From Frankiales bacterium (GTDB lineage: Bacteria > Actinomycetota > Actinomycetes > Mycobacteriales > Jatrophihabitantaceae), in assembly GCA_025966315.1 (NCBI GenBank), contig JAOPUZ010000034.1, positions 1 to 64,000 on the forward strand: 64,000 nucleotides of DNA, in the 5' to 3' direction. The translations under genes and the position numbers were made by a program. Under the pieces are notes generated by a model. It was not told the DNA's origin, ran no database searches, and was given only the letters and a program-made list of their open reading frames with translations. Positions 50,655 through 59,892 of this stretch are shown here, piece after piece (within the stretch, counting starts at the first letter, position 1; the number at the start of each line of letters is the position of its first letter).

Positions 50655-51077
50655 ATGAAGCTCGAAGCTCGCATCTTTCTCTGGATCGCACTGTTCTGTT
50701 TCGCGACCACCGCCGTGTACGCGTGGTGGACCGATCACGACTTGCACGAAATCGAATGGGCCGGCACGGCCGCGCTGGCGCTGTCGGGTGGCCTGCTCGG
50801 GCTGGGCGGCACGTTCTTCTGGTTCGTGTCTCGTCGCATCGACGCCCGTCCCGAGGATCGCAATGACGCCGAGATCGCCGAAGGCGCCGGTGAACTGGGA
50901 TTCTTCTCGCCCGGCAGCTACTGGCCGGTCGGCATTGCGCTGGCCGCATTGGTAACCGGGTTCGGCTTCGCGCTCGTGCAGTACTGGCTGGTGGCCTTCG
51001 GGGTCATCCTGATCCTGGCTACCGTGGGCGGGCTGCTGTTCGAGTACTACGTGGGTGCCCGCGCCCCGCTGCGCTGA
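50655..51077 (+). CDS. ctaF: Cytochrome c oxidase subunit IV, actinobacterial type
   Basis: A 140-residue membrane protein with four hydrophobic segments (IFLWIALFCFATTAVYAWW, LALSGGLLGLGGTFFWFV, YWPVGIALAALVTGFGFAL, YWLVAFGVILILATVGGLL) and the loop EDRNDAEIAEGAGELGFFSPGSYWP that marks actinobacterial CtaF. It stabilises the bc1-aa3 supercomplex. It forms an operon with ctaC. The conserved order would lead toward the qcr/ctaE block, but here 6 kb of unrelated genes intervene. Confidence 0.95.
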   Translation: MKLEARIFLWIALFCFATTAVYAWWTDHDLHEIEWAGTAALALSGGLLGLGGTFFWFVSRRIDARPEDRNDAEIAEGAGELGFFSPGSYWPVGIALAALVTGFGFALVQYWLVAFGVILILATVGGLLFEYYVGARAPLR

Positions 51078-51105
51078 TCGCCTTCCGCACCGTCCCGCAT
51101 ACATT

Positions 51106-51125
51106 GTTCGCTCGATCGAGCGAAC
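51106..51125. terminator. 20-base perfect palindrome after ctaF
   Basis: GTTCGCTCGA followed immediately by TCGAGCGAAC is fully self-complementary. It lies 29 bases past the ctaF stop, in the 247-base gap before the convergent flavoprotein gene. With no loop and no T-tract it could be a weak bidirectional terminator or a protein-binding site. The rest of the gap shows no gene. Confidence 0.45.
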
Positions 51126-51324
51126 GGCGGATATGAATCAATCGGTAGCGGGCCGGCGCACCCGGCAGCCAAGAAAGCCCCTCGCCGAGATCTGGGGCGC
51201 CGAGGACAGGACCCACGCACGCGCGGCGGTCATCGTATTCATCGAGATCACCGGCGGGCCGGGTTCGCGCGCGGAAGCCGAACTACGGCCCTTGGTTGTG
51301 GTCCTGGCACCGGGTCGGCTTGCG

Positions 51325-52881
51325 CTACTCGGATGCGGCGTTCTCGGTGCGGTGATGAATCTCGGCGATATCGCCGTCGCGCACCGCTTCCGACACCGAG
51401 GCGTCTACAGCTGCGTCGCCCGTAACGCCACCATCTCTATGTGGTCCGGCAACCTTACTGTCGAGGCAGCCCTTACCAGCGCGATCGGAAGCGTCAGCTA
51501 CGGTCGAATTTTGTGACTCCATCATGCGAAGAACGTTGTCGGCGGTGAGCTTTCGCCATAAGACCAGAACTTTGGTCAGGGTTGTTGGAGCAAGCATCCA
51601 TGCCGAGGAGCGGACAAGCTGCGTTGTCTCTTCCATCTTCTTCGTCGTGCTCAGGTCTGCCAGGGAGAGGACAGCGACTCGCTCGATATAGGCGAGCAAG
51701 ATGCGAGTGGCGGGACGCTGCAGGGGCTTGCCCCCGCCAAGCCTGTCCACTACATAATCGGTTCCGGTGCTCAACGTCCAGGGCAGCCACGTCGCACGGG
51801 CAAGACGCCTCTGATATCGCCGAGAAAACCCCCGCCGATCCGTGCGGCGCCGGGATATTCGTCGCAGTTCAGTGCCTAACAGATCTGCCGCGATGGCCGC
51901 GACCGTCATTCCCTGTCCATGGGCCGGATTCAACGCACAAGCCGAATCTCCCACGACGATGAACCCCTCGACACCATGGCCGCGGTGGTAACGGCGTATT
52001 CGGTTCTCGGTGGAATGGCTGATGTGTATTACGTCCGCCGGAGTGGCCGTATCCAGTACCTGCGCGGCTTCCGGAGACGGAATGCTCGCGACGAATTCCC
52101 GGAAACCTACGTCATCCCGCGGCGGGTAGTCCTTCCGAATACCGACCAATTGGACGAAGGATTTACCGTCCTCAACCGGGAAGACATTCGCGGACCGCAA
52201 CGTAGGCAAGGACACGGAACCGATGATGAGTCTGTCGCCATCGGGGTCTGCCGGTGTGTGGTAGAGCCGGCTGGCGTAGCCGCTGTGGTTGGTGAAGGTC
52301 GTTTCAGTCGGCGGCTGGAAGCCGATGCGAGTTAGCCACTGGGGGGCTGAGGATCCACGCCCACTGGCATCCACCACGAGATCGGCGACGATAGCTTGTG
52401 TGTGACTGCCGTCGTCGGCTTGTGCTATCTCGACACCGCTTATGCTGCTCTTTCGTATCCCGGGGAGTAATTCGTTCACAACAACGCCGGCCAGCACAGT
52501 CACATTGGGAATCCCGGCGACCCGCTTACGAATCTGCCACTCCAGCATCGGCCTAGTCGCCAGCAGAACCCGCGGCGATGCCGCGGCTGTCCCGGCCTGG
52601 GTATCCGCCGGGTCTGGCGGCTTCAGCGGCCACGGCGCAGTCACAACTGCGCCACCGGCGAGCAGCTCATCACCGAGTCCAGGCAGCAGCTTTTCGAGCA
52701 CCGCCCGGCCGCCCGCAAGAAGGACATGATTGTGATGTCCTTGTGGAACGCCTCGGCGCGCCTCGGGCACGTCGGTGAGCTCATCGCGTTCGAAGATGGT
52801 GACCCGTTCAAAGTAGTCACTGAGGACGCGCGCGGCTAACAGACCAGCTATGCCGCCACCGACGACGACAGCGTGGTCCAT
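51325..52881 (-). CDS. FAD-dependent monooxygenase/epoxidase-like protein
   Basis: A 518-residue flavoprotein of the class A monooxygenase superfamily. VVVGGGIAGLLAARVL (5-20) is the FAD-binding loop, RRGVPQGHHNHVLLAGG (42-58) is typical of the branch near terpenoid epoxidases, DASGRGSS (181-188) is the middle motif, and GDSACALNPAHGQGM (311-325) is the GD motif. The last 50 residues are poorly conserved. ATG 52881 gives the natural start; longer versions add no homology. It is divergent from the peptide gene 53189 across a 307-base shared region. I infer it oxidises the prenyl group or the peptide of that cluster. Confidence 0.82.
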   Translation of the reverse strand: MDHAVVVGGGIAGLLAARVLSDYFERVTIFERDELTDVPEARRGVPQGHHNHVLLAGGRAVLEKLLPGLGDELLAGGAVVTAPWPLKPPDPADTQAGTAAASPRVLLATRPMLEWQIRKRVAGIPNVTVLAGVVVNELLPGIRKSSISGVEIAQADDGSHTQAIVADLVVDASGRGSSAPQWLTRIGFQPPTETTFTNHSGYASRLYHTPADPDGDRLIIGSVSLPTLRSANVFPVEDGKSFVQLVGIRKDYPPRDDVGFREFVASIPSPEAAQVLDTATPADVIHISHSTENRIRRYHRGHGVEGFIVVGDSACALNPAHGQGMTVAAIAADLLGTELRRISRRRTDRRGFSRRYQRRLARATWLPWTLSTGTDYVVDRLGGGKPLQRPATRILLAYIERVAVLSLADLSTTKKMEETTQLVRSSAWMLAPTTLTKVLVLWRKLTADNVLRMMESQNSTVADASDRAGKGCLDSKVAGPHRDGGVTGDAAVDASVSEAVRDGDIAEIHHRTENAASE

Positions 52882-53188
52882 ACCACTCGTCCGCACCCTC
52901 AATTCTGACACTTGACGACTCCACTCCCCGCGACTGATGTTGAACAGCACAACAACTGAAGCCGCAGTCTGCGCCCTGAACCCGCTATGCCGCAAGGGAC
53001 TTCCCACCTAAAGGCGCTGCCCCTGCGCGCGCGCACACGAAGAGTCCCGGCCTCGTATGCCATTAGGCCCTCGGGCCCTCGCGACGCGACTCCTAGCAGA
53101 TGCAAACTTCCGCCATGCCGCGCGGGTGCCCATAATCGCGGCTACCTACCCGTAACACTTTCTCTCGATTAAAGAAGGAGCAAATGTC
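52882..53188. promoter_or_regulatory. Shared upstream region of the flavoprotein and peptide genes
   Basis: This 307-base gap separates two divergent starts and should hold both promoters. The right end, from about 53125, is A/T-rich relative to the surroundings and leads into the ribosome site AAAGAAGGAG at 53171-53180. TTGACG (52913-52918) could be a -35 element. No operator or riboswitch can be named with confidence. Confidence 0.4.
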
Positions 53189-53341
53189 ATGAATGAATCC
53201 ACGATCTACGCTGCAACACTGGAAGATATTAATCGGGTCCTCGACGGAGAAGTTGAGCTTCTCGATGTAGCTGCGGATGGGGAAGAAACCGGGATCGGCT
53301 TCCAGCCCATGACGGACTGGCGTCCCGGCGGCTACTGCTGA
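53189..53341 (+). CDS. Putative prenylated-peptide precursor (ComX-like), 50 residues
   Basis: A short reading frame with one of the best ribosome sites in the window: AAGAAGGAG ends eight bases before ATG 53189. The product has 50 residues. The first 33 are acidic and look like a leader (ATLEDINRVLDGEVELLDVA, with Asp and Glu dominant). The C-terminal part, GFQPMTDWRPGGYC, is neutral to basic and aromatic, with its only Trp at 44 and its only Cys at the end. It stands 36 bases before a ComQ-like gene and in the same frame. ComX precursors in Bacillus have the same size, leader nature and a near-terminal Trp that is prenylated. Homology to ComX is not demonstrable by eye. Confidence 0.7.
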   Translation: MNESTIYAATLEDINRVLDGEVELLDVAADGEETGIGFQPMTDWRPGGYC

Positions 53342-53377
53342 CGTTGGAGGGAATGCCACTCCGCGTCGACGGCTGTA

Positions 53378-54427
53378 ATGGCCATACTGAATGAAACAGA
53401 GATTCACGCCGAGCAACTCGGTGGGTTTGGTCAGCGGGTTGTCTGGGCTGCGCATGCCGCGGCTCAGACGACCTGCGGGCTAACCCGAGCGGGGGAGTTA
53501 GCCTGCCGCGTAATCGACGTGACTGGTCGCCGAGGCGTTTCCGCTCATCGCCTGATGTCCGGTGCGGTCGCCGGATGCATACACGGCGAGGTCGAAAGGG
53601 CGGTACCGGTGGCGGCAGCGTCACTGCTCTGGTGGGAAGGCGCCGAATTGCTGGACGATCTCATCGATGGGGCCGATCCGGCTCTGTCGTTGGGCTTCGG
53701 TCACTCCGACGGTGAGCATCAGCCGAGCGAAATCACCCGATCGGAGTTGATGATAACCGCGATCACCCTGCTCACCTTGGTGCCAGCCAGCCTGGTTGCG
53801 GCGCTACCGGTGGCGGCGCAGGTGCGTGGTCGCCTTACTGACGAGCTGACCGGCGCATCAGTTGAGGCGGCCGAAGGACAGTTGGCGGACCTATATCGCG
53901 GTCCCGATGACCTGTCCTGGGCTCGCGTGATGGTCACCTACGGAGCCAAGACTGGCGCCGCCTATGGAAGAGACGCAGCTATGGTCGCGATCCTGGCTGG
54001 GCTGGACGAGCAAGTCGTCGCTGCCTGGCGGGCTTTCGGCCGGATCTTCGGGGTCCTGTTCCAGTTGAGCAACGACAACCATGGCCTGCATAGTGGCGGA
54101 AGCGAGGACCTGTCCAACGCGACGCCGACGTTGCTATTGGCGTATGCGGCGAATTCGTTGGAACCGCAGCGGCGTCATACCCTGCTGCGGTTGAGGTCGG
54201 AGTCGGTCTCTGACGCCTCCGCCCGAGCGGAGTTGCGGCAGCTGCTTTGCTCGCCGGAAGTCCGATCGGGTTACGTTGAGCGTGTGCGGGTCTTACTGCT
54301 TAAGGCCCGCGCTCTGCTCGAGCAGCTTGCGCAACCATCACAACATCGTGACGTGCTGTCGAACTGGCTGGGTTCGGCGGCATGGTCTGCCTCTGTCGAA
54401 CCCGATGGCGAAGGTGGTCGACCATGA
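53378..54427 (+). CDS. Isoprenyl diphosphate synthase-like protein, ComQ-like
   Basis: A 349-residue all-helical protein of the trans-isoprenyl synthase fold. The first Asp-rich motif is intact: WWEGAELLDDLIDGADP with DDLID at 93-97. KTGAAYG (191-197) occupies the place of the conserved Lys-Thr. The second motif is degraded: QLSNDNHGLHSG (229-240) has ND but lacks the last acid, as in ComQ proteins, where QLxND is usual. ComQ binds an isoprenyl diphosphate and attaches it to Trp of ComX. ATG 53378 has no strong ribosome site; a 13-codon frame at 53353 behind GGAGG may couple it to the peptide gene. A plain polyprenyl synthase is the alternative. Confidence 0.78.
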   Translation: MAILNETEIHAEQLGGFGQRVVWAAHAAAQTTCGLTRAGELACRVIDVTGRRGVSAHRLMSGAVAGCIHGEVERAVPVAAASLLWWEGAELLDDLIDGADPALSLGFGHSDGEHQPSEITRSELMITAITLLTLVPASLVAALPVAAQVRGRLTDELTGASVEAAEGQLADLYRGPDDLSWARVMVTYGAKTGAAYGRDAAMVAILAGLDEQVVAAWRAFGRIFGVLFQLSNDNHGLHSGGSEDLSNATPTLLLAYAANSLEPQRRHTLLRLRSESVSDASARAELRQLLCSPEVRSGYVERVRVLLLKARALLEQLAQPSQHRDVLSNWLGSAAWSASVEPDGEGGRP

Positions 54428-54513
54428 AGACCGGCACCGGGGTTCCTGCTTTCTCCCACGAGGCACGAGGTCGCAGCGACGGCCATTCCGCGAAGAGCGG
54501 GCAAGCCCAGTGA
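54424..54513 (+). CDS. Possible 29-residue reading frame linking the ComQ-like and DUF2332 genes
   Basis: ATG 54424 overlaps the ComQ-like stop as ATGA, and its own TGA overlaps a GTG that is in frame with the DUF2332 gene. The product is basic (MKTGTGVPAFSHEARGRSDG at its start) and resembles nothing I know. The ribosome site is weak. It may be a coupling device, a second small peptide, or chance. Confidence 0.25.
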   Translation: MKTGTGVPAFSHEARGRSDGHSAKSGQAQ

Positions 54514-54533
54514 GTGTGCGCGCGGAGGATGCG

Positions 54534-55493
54534 ATGCAGAAGAGCTCCGAGTGCCGAGCCTTTGCGGCCGGTCTGGTTGAGACGGCGCCGCTGGCTGCCT
54601 ACTTCTTCAATTCACTGGCGCGCGAGATTGATGACGGCGGTGAGCTCGGAAATCTTGTAGTCGATCACCCGAGTAGCGCGATTCCGCTGGCTGGTGTCCG
54701 AATGCTCTCGGCTGCTTATCAGCTGACCCTGCGCGGAAAGACCCCTGAGCTGGCGGCCGTTCTGGATGAGGTCATTCATTCCCAAGTGCCGGTCGACTCG
54801 GCGTACGCGAAGGCCTGGGATTTGACCCGCCAAGCCGTCCTCGCCTATCCGGACGAGGTGTATGCCGCGATGTCGACGCCGGTGCAGCAGCAACATCCCG
54901 GGCGGGCTTCAGCACTTTTACAGGGTTTGGCGATGCTGGCGTTCCGCCGCGTGCGGTTGCTGGAAATCGGTGCGTGCGCCGGACTCAGTCTCGCCTTGGA
55001 CCGCTACCACTGGATCGGATCCGGCTGGGAATGGGGCGACCCGTCCTCACCCGTGAAGCTGCCCGCGGACGGTTACTGGCGGCCGCGCGCTGAAATCGTG
55101 CAGCGCGCTGGATGTGACCTGCTGCCCCGGAACGCGGGCAGCCCCGAGGATCGGTTAATCAGTCAATCCTTCGTTCCGCTCGAGCAGCCGGCGTACCAGC
55201 AGCTCCTCGAGCAGGCCATGGTTCTGACCGAACAGGCCGGTATCAAGGTCGAAGCCTCAGCAGCTGCTCCTTGGCTGCGAAGAGCCTTGTCCGAGCGGGC
55301 AGATCCTGGTGTTGCGACCGTGGTCTGGCATTCAATGATGTGGGGCTACGTTGAGCCCAATGAGCAGCGCGAGATCGAAAGCATCTTGGCCGATGCCTCA
55401 TCTCGGATGCCGTTGGCTCGCGTATCGTTCGAACCGGCGGCATGGGGTGACCTCCCGTTACTGCGGGTCTCGGTCTACCCATCAATGTCGTAG
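54534..55493 (+). CDS. DUF2332 family protein
   Basis: A 319-residue protein of the DUF2332 family, common in actinobacteria and uncharacterised. The central RLLEIGACAGLSLALDRYHW (141-160) has the strand-Gly-loop look of a SAM- or nucleotide-binding motif, and HSQVPVDSAYAKAW and VVWHSMMWGYV flank it, but no methyltransferase activity is proven for the family. ATG 54534 is chosen because GGAGG lies six bases upstream; GTG 54510 is the alternative. It sits between the ComQ-like gene and the P450, so a tailoring role in peptide maturation is possible. Confidence 0.8.
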   Translation: MQKSSECRAFAAGLVETAPLAAYFFNSLAREIDDGGELGNLVVDHPSSAIPLAGVRMLSAAYQLTLRGKTPELAAVLDEVIHSQVPVDSAYAKAWDLTRQAVLAYPDEVYAAMSTPVQQQHPGRASALLQGLAMLAFRRVRLLEIGACAGLSLALDRYHWIGSGWEWGDPSSPVKLPADGYWRPRAEIVQRAGCDLLPRNAGSPEDRLISQSFVPLEQPAYQQLLEQAMVLTEQAGIKVEASAAAPWLRRALSERADPGVATVVWHSMMWGYVEPNEQREIESILADASSRMPLARVSFEPAAWGDLPLLRVSVYPSMS

Positions 55494-55579
55494 CTGCCAC
55501 CGTAGCGGCCGGACCCGCAGCGTCTTATGCCTGGTCACTATCGAAAGTCATCGGCTATTGCCGGAAGCAAGGAGTCATC

Positions 55580-56797
55580 GTGGACCTAGCCTCGGTTGCG
55601 GCTGGCCTGTTTACGGCAGAGGGACGCGAGAATCCTTATCCGTATTACCGCGAGTTGCACAAGCGTGGTCCGATAATTCAGGTCGCGCCGGGTCGATTCG
55701 TGGCGGTCGGGTATCACGAGGTGAATCAGCTGATACGGGACACGAACTTCCTGGTCGAGGACGCTGCCCGTGACGACACGGTCTCACTCGACTGGCGCCG
55801 ACATTCCTCACTGGCAGCGGTGAAGAATTCGCTCTTGTTCACCAACTCGCCGGATCACGAACGGATGCGGGGGATGGTGAATGGCGCGTTCACCGCACGC
55901 CGGATCCTGGAAATGCAACCCCGAATAGCCCACCTGGCCGAAGCTCAGCTCGATCAGATGCTCCGCTCGGCTGATGGGGACGGAGTGGTCGACTTCAGCG
56001 CCGACTTCGCCCTGGCTTTTCCCCTCACTATCTTGGGTGAACTCCTGGGTATACCGGAGGTAGATTGCCGCTGGCTACGTCCGCGAGTCGGCGAGTTGAC
56101 CGCGGTCCTTGAGCCGAAGACAGGCAGGAACGACCTCAGCGCCGCCGACGCCGCCGCCTGCGAGCTAACGGAATATCTTGCCAAACTCATCGAGAATCGA
56201 CGCCGGGAGCCACAGGCAGATCTCGTTAGTCAAGTAGCGCATTTCCGGGACACCACCGATAGCACGCTGAGCCGGGACGAGCTGATCGGAAACCTGATCG
56301 CCCTGATGCTCGCGACCGAGTCCACGGGGAACCTGCTCAGCAACGGCGTCGCCATCCTGCTAGAACGGCCTGAGCTATGGACCCAACTTCATGAGCGACC
56401 GGAATTGGTGGACGATTTTATAACCGAAGCCATGCGCTACGACCTGCCCGTGCAGCTGACCAGCCGCAGGGCTCGACATGACTCGGTCCTGGCCGGCTCA
56501 GCCATCACAGCCGGCAGCGCAGTCCTGATCGGCTTGGGTGCGGCCAACCGGGACCCTCGACGGTTTGACAAACCGGACGTCTTCGATCTTCAACGACACG
56601 ACAACCGGCCGATCACTTACGGCGGCGGTAGCCACTTCTGCCTCGGCGCCGCCCTCGCAGCCGTCGAAGTGCGAGCGGTGTTCAGCAGCATGTTCGCCCG
56701 GTTCACGGCGATCGGTAAGGCTGGCGTGCCGGTTCGCCGCGACCGGTCGACGGTGCGTGGCTACGGATCTCTACCCGTAGTGTTCTCGACGCTTTGA
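55580..56797 (+). CDS. Cytochrome P450
   Basis: A 405-residue soluble bacterial P450. The heme loop YGGGSHFCLGAALA places the thiolate ligand at Cys354. The K-helix ExxR is EAMR (283-286), and the I-helix reads LMLATESTGN (242-251), where an acid-Thr pair normally activates oxygen (here Glu-Ser-Thr). No ferredoxin or reductase gene is adjacent, so electrons must come from elsewhere. GTG 55580 has AAGGAG five bases upstream. It is the last gene of the four-gene plus-strand set and is presumed to oxidise the cluster product. Confidence 0.93.
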   Translation: MDLASVAAGLFTAEGRENPYPYYRELHKRGPIIQVAPGRFVAVGYHEVNQLIRDTNFLVEDAARDDTVSLDWRRHSSLAAVKNSLLFTNSPDHERMRGMVNGAFTARRILEMQPRIAHLAEAQLDQMLRSADGDGVVDFSADFALAFPLTILGELLGIPEVDCRWLRPRVGELTAVLEPKTGRNDLSAADAAACELTEYLAKLIENRRREPQADLVSQVAHFRDTTDSTLSRDELIGNLIALMLATESTGNLLSNGVAILLERPELWTQLHERPELVDDFITEAMRYDLPVQLTSRRARHDSVLAGSAITAGSAVLIGLGAANRDPRRFDKPDVFDLQRHDNRPITYGGGSHFCLGAALAAVEVRAVFSSMFARFTAIGKAGVPVRRDRSTVRGYGSLPVVFSTL

Positions 56798-57166
56798 GCT
56801 TGTCCAAGCTTCGCACTGGAATGGCCGCGCGGGCAGTCTCGACAGATTGCCTCATCCCAAGTGCGCACCATCGGCGATCCGGCGAAAGTGCAGCGAGCTG
56901 CGTTGCTGCCTGATCTAACCCCGCGGAGTGCGATGGCCTCCCGAAGTTTCCAGCGCCAAACGATGATCGGCCAGGTTGGCGGGGCGAGCCCGGACCCGAT
57001 GGCGCCAGTTACGTGACCGTTGCCTGCTGGCCTCGGCCTATGTCCGGAACCCGTGCAGGCGAGCCGGAACGCGCCGGAAACACATTGTCCGCGTCCACGA
57101 GCACCTGTGGACGCGGACAATTGCGTACGACCCGAAACGCGGTATGCGCCAGCCGTGGAGGTCGAG
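56798..57166. other. Region between P450 and qcrB without a recognised gene
   Basis: Apart from the terminator at its right end, this 369-base stretch holds only short reading frames with no recognisable motif, for example a Cys- and Trp-containing frame on the minus strand at 56761-57120. It may be a decayed fragment marking the edge of the inserted cluster. Confidence 0.4.
57085..57120 (-). terminator. Strong terminator of the qcr operon
   Basis: TTGTCCGCGTCCAC (57085-57098) pairs over all 14 bases with GTGGACGCGGACAA (57107-57120), loop eight bases. It lies 46 bases past the qcrB stop and is followed on the minus strand by TGTGTTT. It could also stop transcription coming from the P450 gene. 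Confidence 0.85.
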
Positions 57167-58816
57167 CTAGTCCGTGAGTTCGCGATGTTCTTCGCGGATA
57201 CGTTCCTGCTCGGTCGCTTCGATCGCAGCCAGCTCCGCTTCGATTTCGGCCTTCTCGCGTACCGGGTAGAAGAATCCGCGGACCTTGGAGGTGTGTGGGT
57301 TGCCCAGCTTGTTCATCTTCTTGGGTACCGGCGTTCCTGCGTACTGCAGCAAACCGTGACCATGATCGTCAACCGGACCGAGCGGCTGGTGAATCTCGAT
57401 GAACTCGCCGTTGGGCAGCCTTCGGATGATGCCCGTCTCGATGCCGTGCTCGAGTACCTCACGGTCGTGCCGTTGTAGACCCAGGCAGACCAGGTACGCG
57501 AACGCATAGGCGATAGGAGGCAGGATCAGCAATCCGATACGGCCACCCCACGTCATCGCGTTCAGCGAGATGTCGAAGGCCTTCGCGATCAGGTCGTTGC
57601 CGCCGGACAGCAGCAGCACAGCGTAAAAGGTGATCGCCATCGCGCCCAGGCCGGTACGTACCGGAACGTCACGCGGTCGCTGCAGCAGGTTGTGCTTGGC
57701 TCGATCCTTGGTCAGCTTGGCTTCCAGGAACGGATACGCCCCGGCGAAGGTGAACAGGATTCCCGGCAGCACGACCGTGGGCCAGAACACCGCGGGGATC
57801 GTGTGGTGCCAGACCCGAATCTCCCACGAGGGGAACAGCCGGGTGGAGCCATCGAGGAAGCCGATGTAGAAGTCAGGCTGCGACCCGGATGACACCTGAG
57901 CCGTGTTGTACGGCCCGTACAACCAGACCGGGTTGATCTGGGCCAGGCCGCCCAGAGCCGCACAGACCGCGAACACCAGGAAGAAGAAGCCACCGGCCTT
58001 GGCGCTGTACGTCGGGTACATCCGCTCGCCGGACACGGTGTGCTCGGTCTTGCCCGGGCCGGGGAATTCGGTGTGCTTCTGCTTGATCAGCAACGCCATG
58101 TGGGCGCCGATCAACCCGGCCAGGATGCCCGGAATCAGCAGCACATGCACGATATAGAGACGTCCGATGATCTCGTTCCCGGGGAATTTGCCTCCGAAGA
58201 CGAGGAACGACACCCAGGTGCCGATCACCGGGATAGACTGCATGATCGCCTCCGCAATCCGCAGCCCGGTGCCGGACAACAGGTCGTCAGGGAGCGAATA
58301 GCCGGCGAAGCCCTCGAGAATACCGAGGGTGATCAGGCCCAGACCGATCAGCCAGTTCAGCTCACGCGGCTTGCGGAAGGCGCCGGTGAAGAACACCCGG
58401 AACATGTGGATCGTCATAGAGGCGACGAACAGCAACGCGGCCCAGTGGTGGATCTGGCGAAGGATGAGGCCGCCGCGGACATCGAAGGAAATGTGCAGCG
58501 TGGACGCGTAGGCCCGCGACATCTCGACCCCGTTGAGCGGGATGAACGAGCCGTCATACCGGACCTCGGTCATCGAGGCATCGAAGAAGAAGCTCAGGAA
58601 CGTGCCAGTGAGAATCAGAATGATGAACGAGTACAGCGCGATCTCGCCCATCATGAACGACCAGTGGTCGGGGAAGACCTTGTTCAGCTGCTTACGCGCG
58701 CCGCCGGCCAGGCCGAGTCGCTCGTCCGCCCACTTGCCCGCTTTGCCCTGCGGTGTACGGGGATTCTCGTACCGCTTCGGTCCCTTTACTGTGGGCCCGT
58801 TTGCTGTGACGCTCAT
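57167..58816 (-). CDS. qcrB: Cytochrome bc1 complex cytochrome b subunit
   Basis: QcrB oxidises menaquinol and holds the two b hemes. The 549-residue protein has a soluble N-terminal part, then the membrane core with [20 protein letters not shown] and [20 protein letters not shown] (heme-ligand His pairs), a Qo-site GWLxWPE-equivalent loop, and [16 protein letters not shown]. The charged C-terminal extension is normal in actinobacteria. Its ATG overlaps the qcrA stop as ATGA, so this is the final gene of ctaE-qcrC-qcrA-qcrB. The strong terminator follows. Confidence 0.96.
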
Positions 58817-59892
58817 GGACGCTCCCAAAATGCCGGACCGATTGCCTCCGGGAAATCACCCTTGGCAACAAAGTACTGCTTCCCGTCGACCTCTTCGACC
58901 CCGATCGGGAGCTTGGGCAGGCTTCGGGTGGCCGGGCCGAAAATCGGCTTGGCATCCTCGAGGACGTTGAACTGGGACTGGTGGCACGGGCAGAGCAGCC
59001 GGCCGGTCTGCTGCTCGTACAGCGACGCCGGGCAACCCGCGTGCGTGCAGATCTTGGAGAACGCGACGTAGTCGCCGAACCCGAAGCCGGCCTGGCCTTT
59101 GCGGGCACGCACCGTCTGACCGGGACGCAGGCGGATCAGCAGCGTCGGCGAGTCACCGGCCTTGACTCCACCGGGCACGCCCGGGAAGACCGTTTCGATG
59201 CCACCCGGCAGCAGGTCATCCGTGCTGATCCGTCGTCCGTCCGCGTAGACCAGCGGCGTGCCGGCGGTGTACAGCGTGTGGAACAGGCTTTGGCCTGGTC
59301 CCTTGTTCGGCTTCTTGATCATCGCGCCGACCAGTGCGACGAGCGGCACCGCGGTCAAGGCGCCGACGGCTAAGCCGATCGTGGACTTCAGGATGGAACG
59401 ACGACCGACGCCCAGGTCGTTGAACCCGGAGATGAGGGTGGCCGAGGTCATGATCTGCTCGGTCACCGGCGACGGCTCGTCGTGCCGGTCCTGCACGGCT
59501 TCTTCCTCGGGCAGCAACCACTTGGCCCACAGGACTACGCCGATGCCGATCGCCGCCAGCGAGATCGCCAGCAGAATGCCGAGCAGCGGGGTGAAGTAGC
59601 GGAAGTCCTGGCTGCCCTGTGAGGGCAGGTGCCATTCGAACGGCACGGCGCCGCAGAACACCACGATGAACCCGACCGCGGCCAGGAAACCGATCAGGAA
59701 CGTCAGGGCGATGATGCGTTCAGCCCGGCGCTCGGCCCGGGTGCCGGCAATCGGGAAACGCTCACGACGATGGACGATGTGGACGCCATCGGCCTCGGCG
59801 CCGAGAATCATCGCCTCTTCGGTGCTCATCTCTGCCAGTTCGTCGGCCGAGGGCACCGCGATCTCGTCGGCCGGATGCTGAGTCTGGCTCAT
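58813..59892 (-). CDS. qcrA: Cytochrome bc1 complex Rieske iron-sulfur subunit
   Basis: QcrA passes electrons from quinol to the c-type heme. The 359-residue protein has three membrane segments in its first two thirds, typical of actinobacteria, and a C-terminal Rieske domain with both cluster motifs: [16 protein letters not shown] and [13 protein letters not shown], giving two Cys and two His. ATG 59892 overlaps the qcrC stop as ATGA; starting six residues earlier would overlap more. The protein works in the bc1-aa3 supercomplex with CtaC, CtaE and CtaF from this window. Confidence 0.96.

Follow-up and report, generated by a model that had tools for sequence, protein, structure and literature searches.

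A predicted RiPP precursor gene beside ComQ-like and DUF2332 genes in a Frankiales bacterium: a candidate system for C-terminal cysteine prenylation

The cassette between ctaF and qcrB and its peptide gene

The window analysed in this study, that is, the whole stretch of 64,000 nucleotides from a Frankiales bacterium, contains a cassette with the following features.

51105..57160, no strand assigned: approximate span of the cassette, flanked by ctaF (50655-51077) and qcrB (57167-58828)
51325..52881, minus strand: FAD-dependent oxidoreductase of divergent sequence, with weak likeness to geranylgeranyl reductases and FAD_binding_3
53172..53180, plus strand: ribosome-binding site AAGAAGGAG, 8-base spacer to the ATG (from the sequence)
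53189..53341, plus strand: predicted precursor peptide gene, 50 aa (from the sequence, leave-one-out profiles and a whole-genome profile search)
53378..54427, plus strand: ComQ-like (trans-IDS-like) putative prenyltransferase, 349 aa (PF00348, fold, motifs and clade)
54513..55493, plus strand: DUF2332 protein, predicted class I SAM-dependent methyltransferase (PF10094, E 2.6e-52; model and fold search)
55580..56797, plus strand: cytochrome P450 (E 1.8e-26; relatives of it occur in five sister loci)

The peptide, PF00348 prenyltransferase-like, DUF2332 and P450 genes follow one another in this order on the same strand with short gaps, and are probably one operon headed by the peptide gene; no protease gene was found in it. 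The start of the DUF2332 gene is the GTG at 54513 or the ATG at 54534. The P450 is 41% identical to the P450 of a Streptomyces plasmid cluster (L066), and the FAD protein is 27% identical to one near the S. hyaluromycini cluster. Since the latter likeness is weak, membership of the FAD oxidoreductase in the cluster is uncertain.

At the same ctaF-qcrB site in five relatives, the two genes are separated by about 0.4 to 3.2 kb and the cassette genes are absent. Given this absence and the G+C content of the region (about 62%, below that of most of the window), the cassette was likely gained at this site, with loss from the relatives as the alternative. One relative (G001) carries about 3.2 kb of other DNA there (L233 7030-10257), and insertions may recur at this site.

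The 50-codon reading frame at 53189-53341, translated as MNESTIYAATLEDINRVLDGEVELLDVAADGEETGIGFQPMTDWRPGGYC, is present on the plus strand just as the first-pass annotation of this DNA had claimed, and so is the excellent ribosome site described with it, AAGAAGGAG followed by eight bases (CAAATGTC) before the ATG. The charged leader noted at that stage was also borne out, its charge being mainly acidic; it contains the motif VLDGE and is followed by a variable tail and a C-terminal Tyr-Cys. The peptide has a single Trp (position 44), a single Cys (position 50, the last residue) and a GG at 47-48. It had no match in Pfam or NCBIfam, and no sigma-70 promoter, terminator or Rfam match was found around its gene, which carries little weight in an actinomycete. 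When a peptide-only search of 60 related genomes had given no credible match, relatives were reached with the prenyltransferase-like protein as the query.

Sister loci and the peptide family

A tblastn search of plasmids with the protein encoded at 53378-54427 led to clusters in Streptomyces clavuligerus (L064), Streptomyces sp. NBC_01497 (L065) and Streptomyces sp. NBC_00271 (L066). Each enzyme gene has one or more annotated small CDSs of unknown function nearby, and the translations of the small CDSs in the three clusters are all Cys-terminal. The S. clavuligerus plasmid encodes six tandem peptides (...GNPTNHC, ...GNPTNGC, ...RPQNNC, ...KPTHQC, ...NPGGSC and ...VSPPGC), and the tails in the other two clusters are ...GGGSNTWC and ...NSYTSKIC. 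The prediction that such a gene was likely to be missed by automatic annotation was thus only partly right, because the plasmid-borne relatives are annotated, as 'hypothetical protein'. The six tandem Cys-ending precursor genes of S. clavuligerus (L064 5428-6381) adjoin one enzyme pair, which suggests several products from one cluster.

Of the 80 loci recovered when 84,980 species genomes were scanned, seven are further members of the same enzyme group, from Lentzea sp. (L072), S. hyaluromycini (L073), Streptomyces sp. LS1784 and MJM8645 (L074 and L075), Streptosporangium subroseum (L076), S. hygroscopicus (L077) and Lentzea waywayandensis (L098). Six of them encode peptides, and S. hygroscopicus has an additional one (...GVFWYC). 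In total, matching small peptides occur in 9 of 10 sister loci from Streptomyces, Lentzea and Streptosporangium, and 15 of the 16 peptides, counting the window's own and the paralogues, end in Cys. The one departure is a clear family peptide ending in Thr (...GNIGYT) in Streptosporangium subroseum, in whose genome no second copy was found. The locus of L. waywayandensis has both enzymes and no recognisable peptide; a 12-codon ORF ahead of its enzyme gene (L098 5773-5811, MNELLVEGELSA) resembles a truncated leader and is possibly a decayed precursor.

The surroundings of these genes vary. In S. hyaluromycini, about 5 kb separates the enzyme gene from the peptide gene, which lies upstream on the opposite strand, and L072 has a peptide and a prenyltransferase-like gene with no DUF2332 gene nearby. 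Five sister loci have related P450s, and ABC-2 exporters are encoded in L065, L077 and L073, with one more recognised by eye in L076. Three clade members are plasmid-borne, one of them amid insertion sequences. In the NBC_00271 plasmid cluster (L066 1937-13237), several transposases interrupt the cluster and the DUF2332 and P450 genes are displaced from the enzyme gene. At high score, the clade was found in 2 of 392 Streptomyces genomes and 2 of 297 Pseudonocardiaceae genomes, and no other member reached a comparable score among 200 relatives of the window. The cluster is rare and patchy, and probably mobile.

Wider searches of the relatives and the phylum with the prenyltransferase-like protein returned mostly other synthases. 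Four loci reached through weak matches (L068-L071) were discarded since they hold no such cluster, and an orphan homologue in L192 (7615-8460), in which both Asp motifs are decayed, has no peptide or DUF2332 gene nearby.

Alignment of the peptides revealed a common leader with a Leu-x-Gly near the middle (VLDGE, LLDGD, VLAGQ, LLEGE, ILAGD and ALSGD), followed by a variable tail. Because several peptides had first been picked by their last residue, the leaders were tested alone: each locus was left out in turn, and all its stop-to-stop segments were scored with a profile of the peptides from the remaining loci, trimmed of their last 12 residues. The window peptide ranked first of 1,409 segments in 64 kb. 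Among the eight other loci, the true peptide ranked first in five, second in L065 and fourth in L072; the S. clavuligerus peptides, which are divergent, failed the test (ranks 4-15), and their membership rests on position, annotation and the terminal Cys. A full-length profile run against whole genomes gave strong matches only at these gene clusters, a result that is circular for the training members. In the single close orthologue pair (L074/L075), changes by codon position number 3, 4 and 10, a third-position excess, and the leader and the last five residues (FYTYC) are conserved around an indel. The peptides thus show the features of RiPP precursors, namely a short gene, a conserved leader, a variable core and modifying enzymes nearby, and are a rare, unnamed family.

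A chance reading frame would explain the lack of a close homologue of the window peptide in the 60 related genomes and the low absolute value of its leave-one-out score (6.4-6.8 bits), although low scores are expected because the leaders are short and divergent. Such an origin is, however, extremely improbable in view of the first rank in the leader-only test, the strong ribosome site, the operon position and the conserved C-terminal Cys. The ORF at 53189-53341 is almost certainly a real gene, as first proposed, lying directly upstream of the prenyltransferase-like gene as in most relatives. The general reading given then, of a peptide modified by a ComQ-like enzyme with a DUF2332 gene nearby, is supported, and we consider it very probable that the peptide is a substrate of the neighbouring enzymes.

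The prenyltransferase-like and DUF2332 proteins

The protein encoded at 53378-54427 matches PF00348 (E 4.6e-11), and its predicted model (pLDDT 88) has the isoprenoid-synthase fold; the top PDB matches of the model are polyprenyl synthases, with the Trp prenyltransferase Ord1 among them. The eleven members found here form one clade with a support of 100/100, separate from 74 other homologues. All eleven keep the first Asp motif DDxxD (DDLID in the window). In the alignment to a geranylgeranyl diphosphate synthase, the window's NDNHG falls at the second DDxxD, the IPP site; the last Asp of this motif is lost in 10 of the 11 (NDxxx; NDRxx, NDGxx or NDNxx in the sister loci) and the 74 other homologues have NDxxD. 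The loss is a matter of degree, because the NDxxD of the sister group already departs from the canonical DDxxD. The large sister group (L078-L151 except L098) consists of polyprenyl-synthetase homologues from Streptomyces, Actinomadura and mycobacteria; these have an NDxxD second motif and are often near P450 or FAD genes, and no matching peptide was found beside them.

The clade shares with the trans-IDS-like peptide prenyltransferases (ComQ, ChrPC and PalQ) the fold, the intact first and altered second Asp motif and a nearby precursor gene, the last in the window and in 9 of the 10 sister loci. It lacks the second Asp-rich DDxxD of canonical trans-isoprenyl diphosphate synthases. The conserved acceptor Trp that marks the precursors of the peptide prenyltransferases and of the ComX type is missing from most of these peptides, which conserve a Cys instead, and for this reason we describe the clade as probably working like the ComQ/PalQ class and do not file it as a member.

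The DUF2332 protein matches PF10094, an uncharacterised Pfam family, with an E value of 2.6e-52 (178.8 bits against a cut-off of 25); no PDB relative was found by sequence. Its model (pLDDT 77.5, low at 157-184) has a helical N-terminal half, while the C-terminal half (about 117-319) matches class I SAM methyltransferases. In the VIA comparison (Z 9.8, rmsd 2.9 over 139 residues), the chains listed as matches were nearly all methyltransferases or spermidine synthases; Foldseek alone gave weak matches (best E 5.5e-3), the second being Ppm1. Ppm1 is a protein C-terminal carboxyl methyltransferase. The protein contains LLEIGACAGL, and the alignment keeps LLE[IL]GAC.GL, which corresponds to the usual motif I. 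With a Rossmann-like fold and a Gly-rich motif I, the model has the hallmarks of class I SAM-dependent methyltransferases, and DUF2332 appears to carry a domain of this type. The simplest guess is that it methylates the terminal carboxylate.

The acceptor residue, the proposed pathway and known systems

The first-pass annotation had named both Trp and Cys as plausible prenyl acceptors and had proposed conservation of the frame and of Trp44 as a check. The frame is conserved. Trp44 is not: Trp is missing from most family peptides, several of which have none at all, and for lack of conservation we rejected it as the acceptor. The C-terminal Cys, in contrast, is kept, as described above. Cys precedes the stop in 128 of 3,841 background segments (3.3%), and seven of the eight loci in which the choice of peptide ignored the last residue (it was either an annotated CDS or ranked first with the leader-only profile) are Cys-terminal, for which a simple binomial gives a chance of about 4e-10. 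On this sequence evidence, the terminal Cys, rather than Trp, is the most likely acceptor. The suggestion that GG 47-48 might be a processing element found no support, there being no conserved site; tails are Gly-rich in several relatives (GGGSNTWC, GGGFYTYC and GDGGYNYC) and not in others.

Given that the characterised enzymes of the trans-IDS-like peptide prenyltransferase class all act on Trp (PMC13290415, an April 2026 review), the enzyme might prenylate Trp44 in the style of ComX or PalQ, with the Cys serving otherwise. A Trp does follow the leader in the window, L065, one L077 peptide, L076 and one S. clavuligerus peptide; nevertheless, this reading is very unlikely, because the tails of L066, L072, L073, L074, L075 and five of the six L064 peptides are free of Trp and these loci carry the same enzyme clade. 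Prenylation of an aromatic residue at -1 (Tyr or Trp), with the Cys needed for recognition or modified at a later stage, would fit the Tyr or Trp found there in the window, L065, L073, L074, L075, both L077 peptides and L076, the last of which retains the Tyr and not the Cys. We regard it as quite unlikely, however, since the Cys is kept where the preceding residue is not aromatic, in S. clavuligerus (H, G, N, S, Q and G at -1), L066 (Ile) and L072 (Gly). It is also conceivable that the product of the isoprenoid-synthase homologue is a free terpenoid or prenyl diphosphate, destined for a small-molecule pathway that includes the P450 and the methyltransferase, the peptide being a co-located RiPP or regulator that is modified in another way. 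Small-molecule clusters commonly pair a P450 with a terpenoid enzyme, and sister enzyme clades have P450 or FAD genes nearby and no such peptides; the joint occurrence of peptide and enzyme clade in 9 of 10 sister loci from three families, together with the loss of most of the IPP motif in the clade, makes this explanation unlikely.

The preferred reading is that the peptide is a RiPP precursor whose C-terminal Cys is S-prenylated by the neighbouring enzyme, with DUF2332 acting next, and we hold this mechanism to be somewhat better than an even bet. The chemical steps and the biological role that we infer would run as follows. The conserved N-terminal stretch ending in LxG[EDQS] would serve as the leader through which the enzymes recruit the peptide. 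The isoprenoid-synthase homologue would ionise a prenyl diphosphate at its intact DDxxD and, its IPP-binding motif being lost, would prenylate the C-terminal Cys at its thiol. Next, the DUF2332 methyltransferase would modify the peptide; the simplest target is the alpha-carboxylate of this Cys, which is probably carboxyl-methylated. The P450 may oxidise the prenyl chain or an aromatic residue beside the Cys, the leader would be removed by a protease encoded outside the operon, and export could use the ABC-2 exporter at hand in some sister loci. The outcome would be a small prenyl-cysteine lipopeptide that is secreted and serves as a signal or an antibiotic, with an end structure like that of yeast a-factor. 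More tentatively, and at rather less than even chances, the system may represent a CaaX-independent bacterial prenyl-cysteine pathway, in which, through trans-IDS-like S-prenylation of a RiPP and a methyl ester made by DUF2332, bacteria would have reached a-factor-like lipopeptides separately from eukaryotes.

Our literature search on DUF2332, on bacterial prenyl-Cys RiPPs and on polyprenyl synthetases with a P450 and a precursor, partial in coverage so that an earlier description is possible, yielded no account of the system and no paper on DUF2332. If the proposal is true, prenyl-cysteine peptides, known from fungi and other eukaryotes, have a bacterial version, with a bacterial route of S-prenylation, a new RiPP class and, in Cys, an acceptor new for the enzyme class; it could also provide a tool for C-terminal Cys modification. 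As far as this search went, the role suggested here would be the first proposed for DUF2332.

The enzyme clade resembles canonical trans-isoprenyl diphosphate synthases (PF00348) in its fold and first Asp motif and differs from them in the IPP-site motif, changed to NDxxx in 10 of 11. In the trans-IDS-like peptide prenyltransferase class the second motif has taken on the task of recognising the acceptor, and PalQ accepts an acceptor residue only at the very C-terminus (PMC13290415); by analogy, the clade described here fits this mechanism with Cys replacing Trp. As in ComX/ComQ, the Bacillus quorum-sensing pheromone and its Trp prenyltransferase, a short precursor with a variable C-terminal part is encoded next to an isoprenoid-synthase homologue in which the first Asp motif is intact and a proper second one is lacking; ComQ, too, has the first and not the second (PMC10853753). 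The acceptor of ComX, however, is an internal Trp, whereas the C-terminal Cys and not Trp is conserved in the actinomycete peptides, whose clusters also contain DUF2332 and often a P450. In PalX/PalQ of Paenibacillus, the acceptor is at the exact C-terminus of a RiPP precursor and a trans-IDS-like enzyme is adjacent, as predicted here, but PalX has a Trp and a large NHLP-type leader (PMC10853753) in place of the Cys and the short acidic leader. The likeness to yeast a-factor and CaaX processing lies in the predicted C-terminal S-prenyl-Cys, possibly a methyl ester, on an exported peptide, although no aaX follows the Cys in these peptides. The eukaryotic farnesyltransferase and the membrane ICMT have folds unrelated to those of the isoprenoid-synthase homologue and the predicted soluble class I methyltransferase of the present system.
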